Of a stretch of DNA of 64,000 bases, positions 2,661 through 40,700 are shown piece by piece (positions within the stretch are counted from its first letter, which is position 1; the number at the start of each line of letters is the position of its first letter). Below the pieces are notes generated by a model, which was not told the origin of the DNA, ran no database searches, and was given only the letters and a program-made list of their open reading frames with translations. The translations under genes were made by a program, and so were the position numbers. Origin of the DNA: Chondrosia reniformis (Eukaryota; Porifera; Demospongiae; Chondrillida; Chondrillidae); NCBI GenBank assembly GCA_947172415.1, contig OX359200.1, positions 4,404,501 to 4,468,500 of the forward strand, in the 5' to 3' direction.

Positions 2661-3416
2661 TTCTCTCTCAAACCTAGTGATGCTGATCATGCGACTAAGT
2701 TCCAACAGACTCAATAATAAGATCGGTTTTAGCTATTTTCCCCTAAATTTCCCAAATTTTGCATGGTTTTTGCTCTGTAATTTTGTATTTAAATTAGTGT
2801 CCAATGACTAGACCCTATGATAAATCCTCAAACCATATGATCATGGCTGCTGAAATTTTAATCCTATATATCACGGCTGTGCATTTTCTACATAGCTACC
2901 TATATAGCTAGGTATAGATCTAGAACTATCGATGCAACTTGGCACATTGATGTTTTAAATTCTCGCTCAGTTTATGGAAGCTACGTACTTGTAAATAGAG
3001 ACCTATATAGACTAGTAGTCGAAAAAGTGGAAACCGAGGCCAGTGTACATTTTATTGGATTAGAAATGTACTGATAACTTCAGATAGTTTAGAAACAATC
3101 GATTTTACTGGACATTATTAAGAGGAAATAGAGAAGGAAACTTTCAGCAACCCTAGAGTAAACGCCACTATTGCCACTAAAGCTCTATCCATAGTCTATG
3201 CTCTATCGTGATTCAACCATAGACTAGTCTATGATTCATTGTCTATATGCTAATCAACCGCGATTGGAATCCATTTTTAAACTACGTAGATCCTACTCTA
3301 GCTGATTATAGGTCGGGACAAAGAAGAAAATTGCGCACAAAAGGATCATGTCCGCTTTTGAGGGAGTTAAATTAGAGGGAGTTCACTGTATATGATACCT
3401 TTATACCTATTGAATA

Positions 3417-5254
3417 ATGTTGAAGATACTATCTCGTAAATTGAAATACCTACTGATACTATTGATATGCTCTTCTTTGTTGGTTTTCTATTCGGCAATA
3501 TCTCACCAAGAATCACAAGGTATCGCAGGTAAAGCAGTTATCATTCCTCTAACTTTCAGCACCTCCAGCTCGAGGAAGACTGTATCACTGGAAACGCTAG
3601 AACATGGTGCTGTTACACTAAACACTCAACGTCTTGACACTTTAGCTGCGACAGAACCGCCCCAGAGTCGTTTTTTATTAGTCGTGTTTCCATCTGAACA
3701 ACTCCATGCTCAGACCAACAGCTACTTGGACACATGCAGAATAGCACGAGACTGGAATGCTTCCTTAATTGAACCGTTTATCTGTGGAACAAGATTATTT
3801 GGTTTAAAACATTTTGTCAGCAAACATTGCCCCAAAAGTGAGAGTGTGGTATCTTATGGTACAATATTTGACCTTTCCAGACTCGAAGAAGTACTGGAAT
3901 ACAACAATTGTGAGTTAAAGTCGTGGGGGCATTTCGAAAGACATTCATACCGTAAGATATTTCTCATAATAATAACAGTCAAGGAAAGTGGAGGGCAGAA
4001 ACCTGTCCTGACCATGTGTAACAATGGTAATTACGCTTTGCTGTCAACGTTGATCTCCGCTTTAAACTCCAACCTGCCAAAGACATATCCTGCTTTTGAA
4101 GGAGCTGGTGTTGTATGTGTTTCATTAAATTATTCCACACGTACAACTACCAATGATCTTTTATTTTTCATGAAATCATATCTCCCAAAGAATAAAAGGG
4201 ACTCTTTCAGTGTATTTATATCATATTATGATTACATAATAAGAAATGGATTCATCCAGTCCTCGAACTCCATGAGATTTTCTCAAAAGTACTTTCCGGT
4301 GATTTCTAAAAAGTTGGATCCCTTTGTTGATATGTTTTTAGGAAGTCTTTCATTGAAAGAAGATAACTACCTATCAGTACATGTAAGTATGTCTGTCAGT
4401 GAATTGATAAGCCAAGCAAGTAGTATTTGATCAATTCAAGCAAGCAACCAAAGGTGGGAGGGGTCTATTGGTTAATTAGCTATGTAGGCTACTTTCCAAG
4501 AAGCCCATTGAAATAATAAAATTTGAAAGTAAAATGAAAATGTTAACTTTATTGTTGTGATTGGGGATTGAAAACTTTCAAGGAAGGAGGGACATGCAGA
4601 TGTCACAAAAATTTCCAAATGTTTCAGTCATCAATCTAGGGCCTTCATCATGTCTTACATGTACACCTAGCCACACAAAGATTTTCAAAATGAATTTATT
4701 GTTATTTGCTAGATGTAATACACTATTTCTCTCTATAAGTTCCTTTTAACAAATGTGCTTATCTGTTATAGGTAAGGATTGAAAAACTCCTAAAAAGTCA
4801 TGTACGTAAAAATATTACTTGTTGCATGGAGAAACTGAGGTCAGCCCTATTGGGACTGGGAGATGAGGCTGCAGATGGGCAAAGTAGGAAAATATTATTT
4901 ATTACAGACATATCAAAGTATGGAACACAGTCCTGTGTCAATGATTGTGCTAACAAGTCACAAGCTATTCTAAGAAGGTTTTCTAATGTCATCAGACAAG
5001 AACCAAATTTCTTTGATGCTAGTAAGTTGTACTTCCCTTTCAATAGTATGACTGCTGTATCAGCAATTGAACAAGAAGCCTTGAGTAGAGGGAAGCGGTT
5101 AATTGTAGTTGGGGGAGGAATATTTCAATATTCACTGAAATCAAGATTTACTCAAATAAAGAAAAACCGTAACAGTTTAAGGAAACAGGCTGTAGAAATT
5201 TGCCAAACAAAAGTGAAATTTTCTTTCTGTCAAGTGTCCGAATACAATCATTGA
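3417..5254 (+). CDS. O-fucosyltransferase-like type II membrane protein, copy 2 (complete)
   Basis: Exons 3417-4382 and 4772-5254 join in phase 0 (GTAAGT...TTATAG) to give 482 aa. The ATG at 3417 is followed by a short basic stretch and one hydrophobic segment (about residues 10-28), typical of a Golgi type II signal anchor. Then come NSYLDTCRIARDWNASLIEP, which resembles the N-terminal Rossmann helix of O-FucTs, the HVR motif made exactly at the splice join, FITDISKYGT, and VVGGGIFQYS near the C-terminus. The family is called from motif order (PF10250-like); the acceptor substrate cannot be guessed. It is a tandem duplicate of copy 1. A divergent glycosyltransferase of another GT-B family is the main alternative. 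Confidence 0.6.
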
Positions 5255-5492
5255 TACAAACATTTTGTACAATTTATATTTATTGATCTATATACATCAA
5301 AATTCCTAGATATGATTTAACATATGGATACATTTAGAGGTCTACCTGATATAGGTATAGAATGAAGTATATGAAGTATATCAGTTGACTATGTTCATCA
5401 TATACACACAATGCAGAAAAGTGGCTATTAGGGCAGAGCTGATCAGATTGAGCCATCTACCGCCATATATCTCTATACGATTGTGGTTTAAA

Positions 5493-8400
5493 ATGGCCGA
5501 CCAGCTCGACTGCGAAGCACTTGAGAAACGAATTGATTCTCTCGTTGGAACAAATAAAAAGAGCATTGTAAGAGTTTTGAAATTGTTGAACAGAGAAAAA
5601 GATGTTCTTCAGCGAAAGGTAGGCTTCTTTAAGTTTTAATTGTGCATGTTTAGCACTGTAGGGCGAACCACACTAGAGCAGGTTTAGTTCCCTATAGGCC
5701 TTTTACTGCAGAATGAATGTAGTACGTATGCGGGAAACTGTATTTTAGAATACTATTTGTAGGTGTGACCCTCAGCTGCCTGTAGTAATATTGGTTGTTT
5801 GGTAGCGACATACGAGTACACTCTGAAGTGTGTGAGAAGCTGGATAGTAAACTCTTGAATATGTCCTTGTAGATGTATTATGTATGTATGTAGTACGATT
5901 GCACATTGCTTTGCATGACAGGCTTAGAATATTTGTCAGAAATTTGCAATTATTTATTTTTGTATCTTTATAATTAAGCAGTATTGTTTGAAGATTAAAT
6001 GTTAGTAAATAGATAACATTAGACCTTGGCACTGGAATACTGCCTCACTTAACCTATGTCAATTGGTATGTAAATGATTTATATACATATACATGTATAC
6101 AGTAATCTTAACATAGGCACATGACTATATATATAAGGTTGCCATCTTACTTAACCCATACCAATAGATGGATGGAATATAATATATAATTGCTACTTCC
6201 TGTGTATATAGGTAGATGGAGCATCAGATGATGATATGAGCGATGCACAAAAAGAAGTAACAGAGGTAGTGGAGCGGTTGGACCAGATGAGCAGGCAGTG
6301 TGATGCTATCCTGTCGGAAGGCAGGCCCAGGAGGGACACTCTCATCACAGCTGAAATTGAACATTTTGCAGATAAAACTTTTAAACCTGTAAATGATTTA
6401 GCGTTGCTCTTCTCCGTGCAAAAGTATTTACAAAAAGTACTTGAAATTAAGAAAATAGAGTAAGTTCATAGCATATACCACTTAACTGTTATCATGACAT
6501 GTGTTTGTGAATCTCAAAGTACGTAAACACAAATGCACAAAGGTTACTTTAAGTAGTTAAGTGCAAGGAAAGCTGCTAATAATAGTGTATCATTACATTT
6601 AGCAAATTTAGCATTTCCAACTATAGCTATGCTAAGGATGTGTGTAGATAACTAACCATGGCTATGGACAAGTGCCCGAACAGAACTGAGTGTGTAATTA
6701 TGATACTATAAGTGACTATTGGAGAGACAGTAAAACTCTCTAAATAGGGATACTGCTCAATTCAATGTACGTAGTATGGGTTATCATTATATAAAATGTT
6801 AATCTATTATAATTAAAAATTGATTGTTAATATAATTTAATAAAAATTGACTACGGTATTGACCAACAGGTTAATAGAGCTGTCTTTGACATTGCATAAT
6901 CTAATAATATTGTTCTTATGCTATTTACAAATTTTCAGTCAATTTATGTCCAGACAGGTCATGTGATTATCCTAAAGTTCATTTTGTGAATATATTGAGA
7001 ATGTATGTACATATGATTTCTGAGAGAGATGTTGTACCTAATGCTACTCCATTAGCTGTTGTTGTACATATAGGGAACAGGTTAATTGACATGTTTTTTC
7101 CAATCTAAGCAAGCGGGAAAATGTATGAATATGAATATTGTTGTCTTTCAGTTAGTTCATCGTTAATCATTTTGAGTGTCTAAAGACATTGCTGAAGAAG
7201 ACCCTCAGGGTACGACTTCTCTGAAGACACCAAACTGTGTCTTTAGATGCTCAAAAGATGAAAGATGAACATACCACCTGAAAGATAGGATGGCCTAGTT
7301 AGAAGAAATCCCTATCATCTCATGCATATTATTATTAATTCTTTCCACAGTGAACAGCTAACCAAATGTACAGGTGTAACCTTTGACATGGAGGTTGCTC
7401 TTAGTGCTTATATGAAGTTGGTTTTGCTGTGTGACACTGGATTGGTCCTGGAGTCGTGGGAACATCTTAAGGGATACTGTATGCAGCTGAAGAATGACTG
7501 GTGTCAAAAACTGAAGATTAACCTATCAAGGTATGGGTGTGGATTATTATGGACATGCTGATTATGTTACCAGTCATATAAATTGTATTCCATTTTTGTG
7601 TTACATAGAGTATTGCAAAAAGATTTGAAAACTTCCGGTTGGCCATTTATTAGTGGTTCAGGAGTAAACATTATAAAATGGAAGTCAGTCTCAGAGCACT
7701 TCAGTAGAGTGATGCTACATATGTTTGCAATAGAGAAATGGTATCCTAATCTGATGATTGAACAGGCTATTATGTTTCAATTAGTGGTGGGGGAAGCAAA
7801 GGGGATTCCCCAAGCTATTAGACACCTCCACTGTTTTTGTATTCACAATGTAATGCTTTAGTATACAACTCCTAGCTGGCCATCCTTCTCTGCATGCGTA
7901 CAGTCATAGCTAGCTGTATGTATGGAACACTGAGAGTCCTTAGCTGTTCCTTAGCACCGAGTCAGCAAAGCTACCAAAGTTGTCTGATCCATTGCATTCT
8001 GTCGTCTCAGCTATGGTAGAACCGTTGAGAAAGCGATTTGTGTACCACTTTCATGAAGACAGGAAAACAAATGACACAGATAAGGTATTGTATGAAGTGG
8101 TTATTTCTATATTTTATGAAGTATTTATGTATCTATTGTATGAAGTGTTTATATATTTCTAATATGAAGGTTTTATATATTTCTATTACTATCACTTTTA
8201 TTGTATGAAGTTTTTATGTCTGAATGTCTGCAGCCGGAATGGTTTTTATCTCAAGTATTACTGTGGATTAAGGATCATGGACCTTTCATCAAGGATCATG
8301 TGCAACCCCTTCTAAGTGGCACTGAATTTGAGAGGGTTAATGTGAGGGTATGTTCAGTACATTGTCTATTACAGTTATATGCAGCTATTAGCCATGTACT

Positions 8401-34700: not shown

Positions 34701-37700
34701 AGAAGAAAAAATTAGGAATTTCAGAATTTGGCCTATTTCGGTTTTACCATGCACTTTTCTATTTCTAAACCCTGTTCCTTATTTGCCAACTGTGTAGGAA
34801 GGGACTGGCCTTTTAGTTACATATGTCGAGGGCAAGCAGTATGATGCTGTATTTGAAAGTAGTGGTGAAACATGGAAGGAGAGAAGACGTATTCTCACAC
34901 CAGCATTCAGTGGACATAAGATGAAGCTCGTATGTGTACATATATATACGTGTGTATGTATATTGTGAGTAATCTCGGGAAATTGTTACTTCAAACCAGC
35001 CAAGTAAACAAGTTCCTATATGTACGGTACGCATCATAAAAAAGGTAACAGTTATAACTTTTTACTTTTTACTGTTATCAGTTAAAGGTTAACTCTAAAC
35101 AGTTTAAAGTTAACTTGTAACGGTGAACCGATAACTGTTAACTATAAAAAATTTTGCGCAACTTGTTACGTAGCTACGTACGTGTTTACATTGAAGTGTG
35201 AAGTTATTTATAATCGATTGGCAGTGTTCGTGTTTGCGTAGTTCTCTTTTAATTTACGGTTAACGATGGATCAAGTTTGGATTCGATACGTGAATAACAG
35301 ATCAACAAAATATGACGGGAAAGATTATTTGGAATCGATTAAGAAGAATCGGCGAAAGGAAGGAGCTACTGGAAAGTTGCAACCTGGAGAATTGGTATTG
35401 GTAAAGACGAAATCCAGAGTCTGGAATGCCATTGTCATCAGTAATGTCAGAGTTGACCCTGAACAACCAAGTTAGACGAAAAAAACACATTCAGGCAAAA
35501 TCGAAGTCGAGCCTAGAGAGAAGAAAAGAAAAACTAAAGTGCATTCAAGTGAAGTGGGGCTCCAAAGACCTTTGCCAATTTTGGCTTCATTTAGTCCAGC
35601 AAAGCAACTGCAAGCTACTCCTATCTTGACAGACAACATCTATCCAGTTACAGTTACTCCTCAGGATTGGACAACCACTCAGCTGGAAAACATCCTTCCA
35701 GTTACAGTGACTCCTCAGGATCGGACAAACACTCAGCTGGAGCACATCCTTCCAGCTGAAGAGTACGACCCTGACTTTATACCTATGTCACCACACATGG
35801 TAATGGGAAATTGATTGCTTAGGATTTGCTCAATAACTGTCTCTCACACCAAATTAAAGATAAGCTGGATCACATTGACAGTAGGATCATGACACAATTT
35901 CAATCAGAGATTCTGCAAAGGATGGACAGACTGGAACATTCTTTTCAGGAAACGAAGCAGGAAAAGAAGACACCAGCAAGAAGACCACTAGTTGACATTA
36001 ATCATAGTCATCCACTACAGTGTGTTAGCTCTGCTAACAGTGACCTTAACATGGCCTTTCAAGATGTTCTGGGGAATCAAAAATTCTCAAATGGTGTGCA
36101 AATGGGCATGGCTTTGGTAAAAACTATGTTTACCGAACAGGAGTTGGCTTCATGTACTCTTACTGGACGTACTGTAAATGGTCAAGCCAGACATGCCTTG
36201 GATAGCTCCAAACTGAAGCTAATTGAAGACCTTATACAGAACAAGTATAATTTGATAGAAGCTGAATTTTCCTCAACAAGAAGCTCCTTTTGTCAGGCCT
36301 TGCTTGAATAGGTGTATATACTTGCGGTTAAAGTTTGCTCCTCAAAATCAGACACTTATCTGACATGAAATATAGCATTTACACTTAGTCTATATCTTTC
36401 TATTATAATGTTTTAATATTATGTATACCATTAAACATATTCTTTTTCATTTTACAGTTTTATTAAATGTTGTAATTATATATATAGTAGTATATTTCAT
36501 AGTAAGTAAGCAGAAAAAAATGTTAATATCCTTAGCTTCTCCATTTACTTCCAGCACCTTGGGATTCCCAAGGTGCTGGAAGGTGCCTTTCTGAGATGAA
36601 CACTTTGTACACTTTTCAGCTGTTACGGTTGTCCAGAAGATTTTTATGGAATGAATTAGTTCATCCTTGGTACGAGGTTTTGCTACTGTTCGAATGTAGT
36701 GCTTTAACTCATGCCACAAGTTTTCAATTGGGTTTAGATCAGGGCTCTCTGCAGGTGTCTTCATTACCTTAATTCTATGGTCCTTAAAAACTGTCTAGTA
36801 GAAAGTGATGTGTGGCAAGGGGTATTATCTTGTTGATATTTGCCATTTGGTAATTTTTCTTCAAGAAATGGCAGAAGATGTGTTTGTAGTACCTCTTGAT
36901 ACACTAGACTATCTACAGAGCCAGTAATTATGCAAATATTTGTCGCTCCTTTCTTTGATATTCCAGCCAACACCATCACTCTGTAGGGATTTTTTGGTCA
37001 TGCTTTGGGCTTTGGTGCTGTGCCAACGTTTCTGTAAGAGAAGGTCCTATGATTTTCCAGTTGAATTATGCACTCATCCGTCCATACCACATCTTCAAAA
37101 TTATTTCCAATATTTGCTTTTGCCCAAGCAAGTCTCCTTTCTTTGTTCCTAGCCCGAATCATTTGGCAGTACCTACTACCATGGAATGTCCATCCCAGTG
37201 TCTTCCTGGCCCTTATTATAGATGACTGGGAAATATTGAATCCCTGATTCTCTAAGTGTTTTAATAGCTGTGTAGCTGTAGTTTCATCATCTTCTGCCAT
37301 ACGATCTTCTATAAGTTTCAACATATCTCCAGTTAATTTGAATGGTCTTCCAGATCCTGGGAGACGACAAATAGTACCATGTGTCTTGTATTTTTGAATT
37401 GTCTTCCAAACTGTCTTCTTTGGTACTACTAGTCCTTCTGCTTTAAGAACTCTAACGACATTTCCGTATGAAATGCTCCTGTCAAAATACAACTGAATAA
37501 TCCTTTGTTTGCAATACATCGATAAAACCATCTTCCCACGCATTTACTAATATACTTTATTCAAAAAAGACACCTTTCAGCTAAATGCACTTGTCATAAA
37601 ACACCTTTGATCGTGATATTGTTATACGTACATGCGTATACGGAGCTCGAGTCATCAAATACGAACCGAGTTAACGATTTTGGTAAGTTTAGCTTTAGTT

Positions 37701-40700
37701 TTATAATAAGCCAAATATACAAGAAGTGATCACGGAGACGAGCGATGAATGCAGCATTACAGTGACGGAATATACGTACGTATATAAGGAACTAAATTTA
37801 CGTATACGAGGCATGCCCATATTTCTTGCACAATAACATCTACCTGTGCACGAGAGAAACAGTTAGCCGTTAACCTTTTTCTGGTAAATATTAACTGTTA
37901 ACGGTTAACAGTTTTATAATAACGAATAGCCGAAAAATGTTAACCTGTAACCAGTTAACGTTACCTTTTTATGATGCGTACCGTATATGTATGAATACCA
38001 ATTTATATGATTCTAACAAACACCCTAAATAGTATTCTGACCAATTAAGTGTTTGCTAATTAATTTAATAATTTCCCTACTTTCTTTTTTCCTTGTATAT
38101 GTTACTTGATGTCAATTTCATTGTCTTAGATGGAACCTTTGATTATGGAAAGCACTAAACGTCTTGCAGAGAAGGTTGCGGGATATGCAGAAAGTGGTGA
38201 ATCAGTAGATGCTATAGAGTATGTATAAATGCAATTCATGTCCAGTATTTCTTTGAATGTTGAATTTGAAGAGACACGCCTATATGTAATTGAGTAAGAA
38301 ATGTTGCCAATTCTGTACTGAATTAAATGTCTAATTTACAGGATGTATAACAAGATGACAATGGAGGTTATTCTAGCAACTGCTTTTGGAAGAGCCATAG
38401 ATGTGCAGAATGGCAAGGGAGGAAAGATACTTGAGTCAGCTGTAAAGGTATTTGGTATTTTTGCAACTGAAGGAGAGCATTCAAGCAGGGTTGCTAGAGT
38501 TCTAAACTTCATGGCACGTGAGCTAGGTTATATTTTATTTTTGAAGACTCTTCCTCCAATCACTTTTTGGCCATCTTCTGCAATTTCTATTGGTAATGCT
38601 CATATATGTAAGCATATGGATTTTTTATATTTCCTCTGTAGTTTCCTTTCCTAAACTGAAGCCAGTTTTTCGCCTTCTTATTCGCCATGTTGTCATCGGT
38701 GATGCAATGGACTATCTGGCTAAGGCTAGTCAGGAAATAATCAAGTCAAGAAAGGAACTTGATGATGAAAAAAGTGCTGTACGTGATCTTCTAATGTTTA
38801 CGAGGGATTTTATTGTGGTGTATAGTATTACAGATTTACTCAGTATAGGCTTTATAATGTTGCATGTTTGTGCTTCAGAAATCTGATTTGCTTGGTCTGT
38901 TGATGGAAGCAGGTGATGGTGAATCAAAGAGGGTTTTATCTGAAGGAGAAATTATAGCAGATTCAGTAGGATTTCTAATTGCTGGCTATGAGACAACTAG
39001 TTCTGCTCTCACATTTACTACTGGTTTACTAGCTTCCCATCCTGATATCCAAAAAAGACTAGCGGAAGAGATCAAGAATTACTTCTCTGAGAATCCTGTA
39101 TGTGCTACAAGTATTATATGTATATGTAAAAGAATTATTCTACATTTTTAATCCATACATATACTATGGGAAGGTTTTTACCTTTACATACATATTTAGG
39201 ACTCAACTCTCTATGAAGCCACTCACAGTATAGACTATCTGGATATGGTATTCAATGAGGCACTGCGACTCTTCCCTATAGTACCAATGTGAGTTCTGAG
39301 AAACAGTTAAGTCAGTATGTTTTTGACAATTTGTTTTGTTTTCTTTATCTAGCACCATAAGGCAGTGTACTGATGATATTGTACTTAAAGGTATACAATT
39401 CAAGAAGGATGTAGCAGTATTGATTCCTATTTACAACATTCAACATGATCCAGACATATGGCCTGATCCAGAAACATTTGATCCTGAAAGGTAAAGATTT
39501 TAGTACATGTTTGGATGTTTGTGTTTCGGTATGTATGTTTTTAACTTATGGAATTTGCTGACTAGCTTAAATCTTCAGTTGAGTTTCTCCTTCAAGTGTA
39601 TAAGTGCTTTGACTTACCAGTGCTTAAAATAAGAATTAGGATTTGCTTGGATTGGACATTTGCTTTTTTTGATCAGACACTATTGTCAGCCTATCATCTA
39701 ATTTAATGGTGCTTAAAATAGCTTTTATAATAAGACTACAACCCAGTTTTCTACCTAATATGTCACTGACTTCAAATCTCATCCACCTATTATTACCAGC
39801 CCTTTTTCTATAGCTCTCTATATTAGCAGGAAGAGTTGTTAAACATTGTTGATATATTTGCTAGACAAAGCTATATTCTTAAGTCTATTAACACAAATGA
39901 CACTTTCATCAGGACCAAAAATTACTTTATAGCTACAGTACACACGAAAAGAAACGCTTACTCGATTGAGATTGTCGAGGCTATCACTCGCCAAGACTCG
40001 TCAAAACCTCGCTAGAAGTCTCTACATAATCTCGGCCTTGTAAATCGCCAAACCAGTGAGACGGTGAGTGGTATGAATCGGCACATAATGGGTAATAACT
40101 GGAACGCTTTTCTAATTAGTGTGTGATATAGTTGAAGAAGAAGGATAAATCAATTTACACCCATCCCTGTCGAGGCACTCGCTAAAATCCCTCAACTTTT
40201 CCTTGCCTTGAATACCACTCGTTAACACTCTTCTCGCAGAGTGCCTCGCTCAAAAATCTTGATTGAGTAGGCGCTTCTTTTAGTGCGTACCGTACTTCCT
40301 AATAATACAAGAAGTATCTGGACACAATGACCGACTGAAGGTCTATTTGACCGTACCTAGCATGATTTTAATCGGACATTGTCTGATGTCCGATGTCCGC
40401 CTGCTATTTTATGCATGGTATGGTTTCCTTAGGGGAGGTTGAGATCGGTATTTCTAAAGAAACCATGAAGGTGTATATCTGATACAAATTATGTTCTCTG
40501 TCAAAGGCCCAGTAACTACTTTGTATAAAAAAGAATAATATTATATATCTCAATTCTTAACTTGCTACATAACTGATTTATTGGAAAAGGATGATGATGG
40601 ATGGTAATTAGATCATAAAGGAGGAAAAGGATTAAGAAAAGAAAAGGCCTAAATGTCCATATACAATAAAATACTAGATGATATAATTTAGGAAAACACA

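Follow-up and report, generated by a model that had tools for sequence, protein, structure and literature searches.

Introduction

Tc1/mariner elements are textbook one-protein transposons: a single gene is typical of Tc1 elements, and this one-protein mode underlies vectors such as Sleeping Beauty. Here we describe a departure from that layout in the sponge Chondrosia reniformis. In a stretch of 64,000 nucleotides (GenBank assembly GCA_947172415.1, contig OX359200.1, positions 4,404,501 to 4,468,500; hereafter the window), positions 35025-37983 form a single Tc1-type element, whose pair of terminal inverted repeats (TIRs) encloses a BEN-domain open reading frame (ORF) on the plus strand and a Tc1 transposase on the minus strand, in convergent orientation. 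Harbinger, which has a Myb-like partner protein, comes closest as a precedent. That partner binds to the TIR and permits the two proteins to enter the nucleus jointly, and the trees of both are largely congruent (PMC9179366).

No description of a BEN gene in a Tc1 element was found among the titles and abstract openings searched, Repbase and most subscription journals lying outside the search; within that literature, the system appears undescribed, as a sequence-only reading of the window had suggested. The term ‘BEN domain’ occurs only in the reference list of PMC5704228, and the word stem ‘transpos’ is absent from the main text of the C. reniformis genome note (PMC12181767).

Results

Layout of the window element

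The sequence-only reading had placed the transposase and the BEN ORF within one TIR pair and one TA duplication. This was borne out: the TIRs are identical at 18/18 positions, TA stands on both sides, and the coding regions match Pfam BEN and DDE_3. The element comprises the following features.

35023-35024, no strand: left TA target-site duplication, read from the sequence
35025-35042, plus strand: left TIR, CGGTACGCATCATAAAAA, a perfect inverted match to the right TIR
35088-35264, no strand: left subterminal zone with 4 GTTAAC palindromes, read from the sequence
35266-35472, plus strand: BEN-protein gene, piece 1, N-terminal domain; stops at an in-frame stop; alignable with the N-terminal domains of other lineages
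35539-35811, plus strand: BEN-protein gene, piece 2, linker with a 54-bp tandem duplication; frame as piece 1
35826-36308, plus strand: BEN-protein gene, piece 3, coiled-coil-like stretch (by eye) and BEN domain (residues 96-148); other frame
36447-36764, minus strand: transposase 3′ piece (NPIE motif, end of DDE_3); other frame
36764-36979, minus strand: transposase middle piece (QQDN motif, by alignment to relatives); frame as the 5′ piece, after the stop
36998-37543, minus strand: transposase 5′ piece (HTH_Tnp_Tc3_2, TDE motif); ends at a stop
37869-37959, no strand: right subterminal zone with 5 GTTAAC palindromes, read from the sequence
37966-37983, minus strand: right TIR (reverse of CGGTACGCATCATAAAAA), 18/18 identical to the left TIR
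37984-37985, no strand: right TA target-site duplication, read from the sequence

The element thus has the TIRs of Tc1/mariner (IS630-Tc1-mariner) and its TA target-site duplication, the latter read in both flanks. The helix-turn-helix (HTH) and DDE_3 parts of the transposase are recognised by Pfam, as HTH_Tnp_Tc3_2 in the 5′ piece (E 1.6e-9) and as DDE_3 in the 3′ piece (E 8.5e-8), and piece 3 of the BEN gene matches Pfam BEN at E 4.2e-7 with 30.5 bits (cut-off 23.2). No third TIR-like tip lies inside the element; with up to 5 mismatches in 20 allowed, the terminal two were the only matches. Both genes of this copy are broken, each with an in-frame stop separating its first two pieces and a frameshift ahead of its last piece.

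The named database neighbours of the transposase are the Tcb2 transposases of Holothuria leucospilota and Exaiptasia diaphana (43% identity each), and no relatives were confirmed in viral and prokaryote contigs. The DD34E assignment of the sequence-only reading holds for six aligned relatives, which have D157, D242 and E277, with 34 residues lying between D242 and E277; in the window copy a frameshift separates the second catalytic motif from the third, and the spacing is readable in the relatives only. Within the transposase 3′ coding region, positions 36548-36582 hold two perfectly inverted 17-bp arms around a single spacer base. Since the local translation departs from that of the relative L052, the repeat has the look of a template-switch mutation in the window copy.

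Two-gene copies across the genome

The C. reniformis assembly (117,379,552 bases in 15 contigs) was searched for further copies. DNA searches turned up sequences related to the transposase half and to the ends, and BEN piece 3 gave 13 matches including the window, 10 of them at most 4 kb from a transposase locus on the opposite strand. Twenty regions were retrieved for reading (designated here by L numbers), and TIR pairs including the TA were found in L052, L053, L055, L060, L069, L070, L071, L072 and L074, among others. Both frames are open in L072 (transposase 350 amino acids, partner 515, convergent) and in L070 (348 and 449). L075, which was read without its right end, has divergent frames of 360 and 331 amino acids; in this lineage (L075 and others) the genes stand back to back, often about 1 kb apart.

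L069 and L070 align exactly from TIR to TIR, over 3474 positions with 99.45% identity, and their flanks show no match at E 1e-5. Since the identity ends at the TIRs, both genes move as one unit. An internal TIR tip was absent from all 9 full elements checked, which excludes nesting in an unrelated element, an arrangement that the sequence-only reading had named as one that would refute it.

For a genome-wide count, same-strand matches were joined within 900 bp (partner-type, n = 125 loci) or 700 bp (transposase, n = 154 loci); the loci were drawn from the listed matches with many repeats of entered loci omitted, and for some of the partner-type loci the match is restricted to the N-terminal part of the L071-type protein. 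A partner-type ORF lay within 4 kb of most of the 67 transposase loci of at least 850 bp, in convergent (42), divergent (11) or tandem (1) orientation, and 13 had none; the gap was 108-332 bp in 31 of the 42 convergent pairs. Because these queries came from BEN-carrying elements, the count was repeated with Pfam DDE_3, which is not seeded with them. When 150 of 253 candidates were scored, 87 matches were obtained (47 convergent, 14 divergent, 2 tandem, 24 without partner); when loci were placed at random within chromosomes, the mean over 500 trials was 0.9 and the maximum 5 of the 87. Among the matches listed with a frame of at least 300 amino acids, two of which have stops inside the match, 33 of 35 have a partner-type ORF on the opposite strand at most 4 kb away, in convergent (24) or divergent (9) orientation, so that other copies with both genes in the same layout, which the sequence-only reading had proposed to look for, are indeed present. 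In the converse survey with Pfam BEN, 18 of 24 matches had a transposase locus on the opposite strand no more than 4 kb away (16 convergent, 2 divergent).

One of the two long-frame matches without a partner, L079, is a decayed copy: the transposase is broken up into pieces of 207 and 131 amino acids, no TIR tip was found and the best BEN-profile score (E 0.042) is not significant. Beside this transposase, L079 1342-1473 holds an inverted repeat of 54 bp (93%) around a 24-base spacer. In L054, reverse-transcriptase-like ORFs (by eye) follow the BEN gene at about 3287-6001, as if a non-LTR (non-long-terminal-repeat) element stood in place of the transposase half.

Common history of the two genes

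Both genes have been inherited together across highly diverged lineages and kept under purifying selection. Over 11 elements, pairwise identities of transposases and BEN ends correlate with a Mantel r of 0.915, a value reached in 0 of 20000 permutations, although much of the correlation stems from within-lineage similarity. Trees of 12 transposases and 11 BEN ends, in which WIN denotes the window element, have in common the groups L070+L077, L052+WIN+L053+L055, WIN+L053+L055 and L053+L055. WIN+L053+L055 is under the program's star mark, as is L070+L077 in the BEN tree. L060, which is not in the BEN tree, joins L052+WIN+L053+L055 in the transposase tree, and L072+L073+L074 is starred in the transposase tree and stands unresolved with the long-branch L071 and L075 in the BEN tree.

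Counted over both genes, comparisons of different families find 61-87% of the synonymous and 12-39% of the nonsynonymous sites differing. For the BEN part of the window element and L052, 68.8/94 synonymous and 118.2/347 nonsynonymous sites differ, and the transposase is similar. The ratio of nonsynonymous to synonymous divergence (dN/dS, w) between the window element and L053 is 0.22 in the N-terminal domain and 0.05 in the 5′ half of the transposase; such between-lineage ratios are rough, with dS at or near saturation. At shorter distance, L072 and L076 have a dS of 0.033 for the partner and 0.032 for the transposase, with w of 0.39 and 0.34, and the two genes of this pair are of the same age.

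Architecture of the partner protein

The partner protein begins with a small N-terminal domain and ends in a BEN domain, with a linker of low-complexity or coiled-coil type in between. Pfam BEN scores above cut-off in P0001 (the L072 protein), L052, L073 and L074, as well as in P0004 and P0005, the database relatives of P0001 (E 2.0e-61 and 9.7e-44). In the L070 and L071 types, the assignment comes from our own profile, at 1e-4 to 3e-7 in a small ORF set. A profile of 9 BEN ends, 8 of whose rows match Pfam BEN singly (E up to 1), matches solved structures of BEND3 (best chain 7w27, 1.5e-9) and BANP (2.6e-6), and the domain therefore probably binds DNA in a sequence-specific manner, as judged from these chain matches.

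The N-terminal domain, about 60 residues long, is alignable between the window, L071, L072, L074 and L075 types. It has no significant relative in Pfam or PDB; a resemblance to the KDM4A Tudor domain is weak and non-significant (E 0.035). Many short matches to this domain only lie on contigs C7 and C2, several of them where no BEN or transposase match is listed; they are perhaps deletion derivatives or a separate N-domain family. The linker is variable: the 54-bp tandem duplication of the window copy (35632-35739) is 89% identical between its units, and the linkers of L053, L055 and L072 contain longer proline-rich tandem repeats.

The idea that the N- and C-terminal parts of the window BEN gene are separate genes or are split by an intron was rejected, because the frames are continuous in relatives: L055 is open from the N-terminal domain to the coiled coil, L053 from the coiled coil to the BEN domain, and L072 and P0004 are single ORFs. 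P0127, P0128 and P0129 were not counted as homologues from other species, being near copies of the host's own proteins. P0128 is 99% identical to the host L071-type protein, and P0127 and P0129, which are 96% identical to each other, are close to the host L070-type protein P0002 (87% identity between P0002 and P0127) but have a different C-terminus. P0004 is absent from the C. reniformis assembly, where its best-scoring match is 63% identical over the BEN end and a 56-residue fragment reaches 73%. The predicted structure of the homologue P0005 (with P0004 and P0128) has a mean predicted local distance difference test score of 41.5 and was left out of fold searches.

Subterminal repeats

In the two 250-bp stretches inside the TIR tips, the window element has 9 GTTAAC palindromes (shuffle mean 0.18, maximum 3 in 2000 shuffles), with 1 in the 2463 bp of its interior and 17 in the remaining 61037 bp of the window. 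Counts at the ends and in the interior are 9 vs 1 in the window element, 6 vs 0 in L052, and 9 vs 0 in both L053 and L055. The motif is retained in two gene-less miniature inverted-repeat transposable elements (MITEs), L065 and L066, of 218 and 216 bp, which have 6 and 3 copies. Other families have their own palindromes: CGTACG occurs 6 and 5 times at the ends of L069 and L070, and ACGCGT forms a weaker array of 4 in L074, neither being found inside. L075 shows several TTCCGCGGAA-like, C+G-rich end repeats (by eye). A palindromic end motif in every lineage was considered and dropped, as L060, L071 and L072 lack a clear palindromic array.

Known BEN domains offer parallels. The BEN domain of NAC1 binds the palindrome ACATGT and those of Insv and Bsg25A bind CCAATTGG, and NAC2 binds a non-palindromic site (PMC7764960). 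The partner probably binds subterminal sites such as the GTTAAC array. Binding to the GTTAAC zones, as first suggested from the window alone, is plausible, with clear palindromic arrays in the window family and in L069/L070.

Genomic setting of the window copy

A Pfam p450 match (8.7e-14) at window positions 38864-39148 marks a cytochrome P450 exon downstream of the element, and a P450-like stretch is also seen upstream (by eye). The element therefore probably sits in a P450 intron, with its BEN gene in the same direction as the P450 gene.

Discussion

The two-gene Tc1 unit is well supported. For the window element itself, we think it fairly probable that it is a decayed member of a large two-gene Tc1 group in which the BEN partner is co-inherited, binds the ends and aids transposition. 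Among three readings of the partner, a role in transposition through end binding appears the best, on the analogy of Harbinger. The DD34E transposase would cut and paste at TA; the BEN domain would bind short subterminal sites, GTTAAC in the window family; and the BEN protein, like the Myb-like protein of Harbinger, might help by bringing the ends together, by recruiting the transposase to them or by taking it into the nucleus.

Several observations weigh against this reading. On the protein side, the L075 partner scores 19.2 bits with Pfam BEN, under the cut-off of 23.2, and the whole proteins of the L070 and L071 types (P0002, P0003) have no Pfam BEN match. At the ends, L060, which belongs to the window clade by its transposase, has GTTAAC once at the ends vs 3 times inside and a non-palindromic end motif, CGGTTA; L071 and L072 have no significant palindromic end array; and the transposase itself could be what binds the end repeats. 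The saturated dS between lineages counts here too, and recent copies evolve near neutrality, with w of 1.36 in the BEN part of L052-L054, and of 1.06 in the N-terminal domain and 0.62 in the transposase of L053-L055; these high ratios are as expected of recently split copies, since such copies are decaying. In the surveys, no transposase locus lies within 4 kb of 31 of the 125 partner-type loci or of 6 of the 24 Pfam BEN matches. L078, of another family, is apparently transposase-only: its TIR-like tip lies about 370 bp beyond the transposase, the second end was not found, and neither a partner match nor a BEN-profile score better than E 0.84 was obtained. Copies with the same TIRs but without one of the genes had been foreseen as grounds for giving up the unit; L078 and the gene-less MITEs do not refute it, because 33 of the 35 long-frame DDE_3 matches have a partner.

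In a second reading, the BEN protein is co-inherited but would act on transcription or chromatin outside the transposition complex, whether by opening the chromatin of the element or by keeping copy number down through repression of the element's transposase. BEN proteins with a known role are chromatin and transcription factors (PMC11472053, PMC10206803), the faint Tudor resemblance of the N-terminal domain points the same way, and at 9 of the 35 long-frame loci the genes stand head to head, as would suit a shared control region. The GTTAAC arrays, however, stand at both ends and are kept in gene-less MITEs, which fits a cis role of the ends better than promoter control alone, and we regard this regulatory or anti-silencing role as unlikely, though worth keeping in view. 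That the BEN gene is a captured host gene, mere cargo of a Tc1 element, would account for the broken ORF in the window and for dN/dS near 1 among closely related copies; it is strongly disfavoured by the partner at 33/35 long-frame matches, by the correlated divergence of the two genes and by purifying selection between lineages, and appears very improbable. The 13 of 67 long transposase loci without a neighbour and the partner-type loci without a transposase could be taken to mean that a transposase element merely lies inside or beside an unrelated BEN element. This is scarcely credible given the lack of internal TIR tips, the constant strand relation and narrow gap, the exact two-gene span common to L069 and L070, and the presence of both genes in copies with related TIRs.

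A bolder form of the transposition-partner reading is that Tc1 transposition in the sponge lineages described here needs a transposase and a DNA-binding BEN subunit with lineage-specific, often palindromic sites, that the partnership predates the split of the lineages, and that some animal BEN transcription factors may descend from transposon partners; we hold this to be speculative and rather doubtful. A BEN partner in nearly all long-frame members would mean that a two-component mode arose in Tc1/mariner, as in Harbinger. The BEN-carrying Tc1 elements provide testable pairs of proteins and end sites. With 18 of 24 Pfam BEN matches of this genome beside an opposite-strand Tc1 transposase, the elements also prompt the question of how animal BEN-domain chromatin factors originated, and transposon BEN genes may be mistaken for host regulators in annotation.

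Comparison with known systems

The sponge elements resemble Tc1/mariner elements of the Tc1-like DD34E (Tcb2-like) kind in their TIRs, TA duplication, HTH plus DDE_3 transposase and, in relatives, DD34E spacing; unlike typical Tc1 elements, they carry a second, BEN-domain gene on the opposite strand. With BEN transcription factors (BEND3, BANP, NAC1, Insensitive) the partner shares the BEN domain and the profile match to the BEND3 and BANP structures, but it is transposon-encoded and its N-terminal domain belongs to no recognised family. PIF/Harbinger likewise has two genes per element, a faster-evolving partner (DNA-binding in Harbinger, predicted to be so in the sponge) and congruent phylogenies. 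The sponge elements do not belong to PIF/Harbinger, as their transposase is of another superfamily (DDE_3/Tc3-type) and their partner has BEN instead of Myb/SANT; in possessing a co-inherited partner protein, they would resemble PIF/Harbinger in mode of working.

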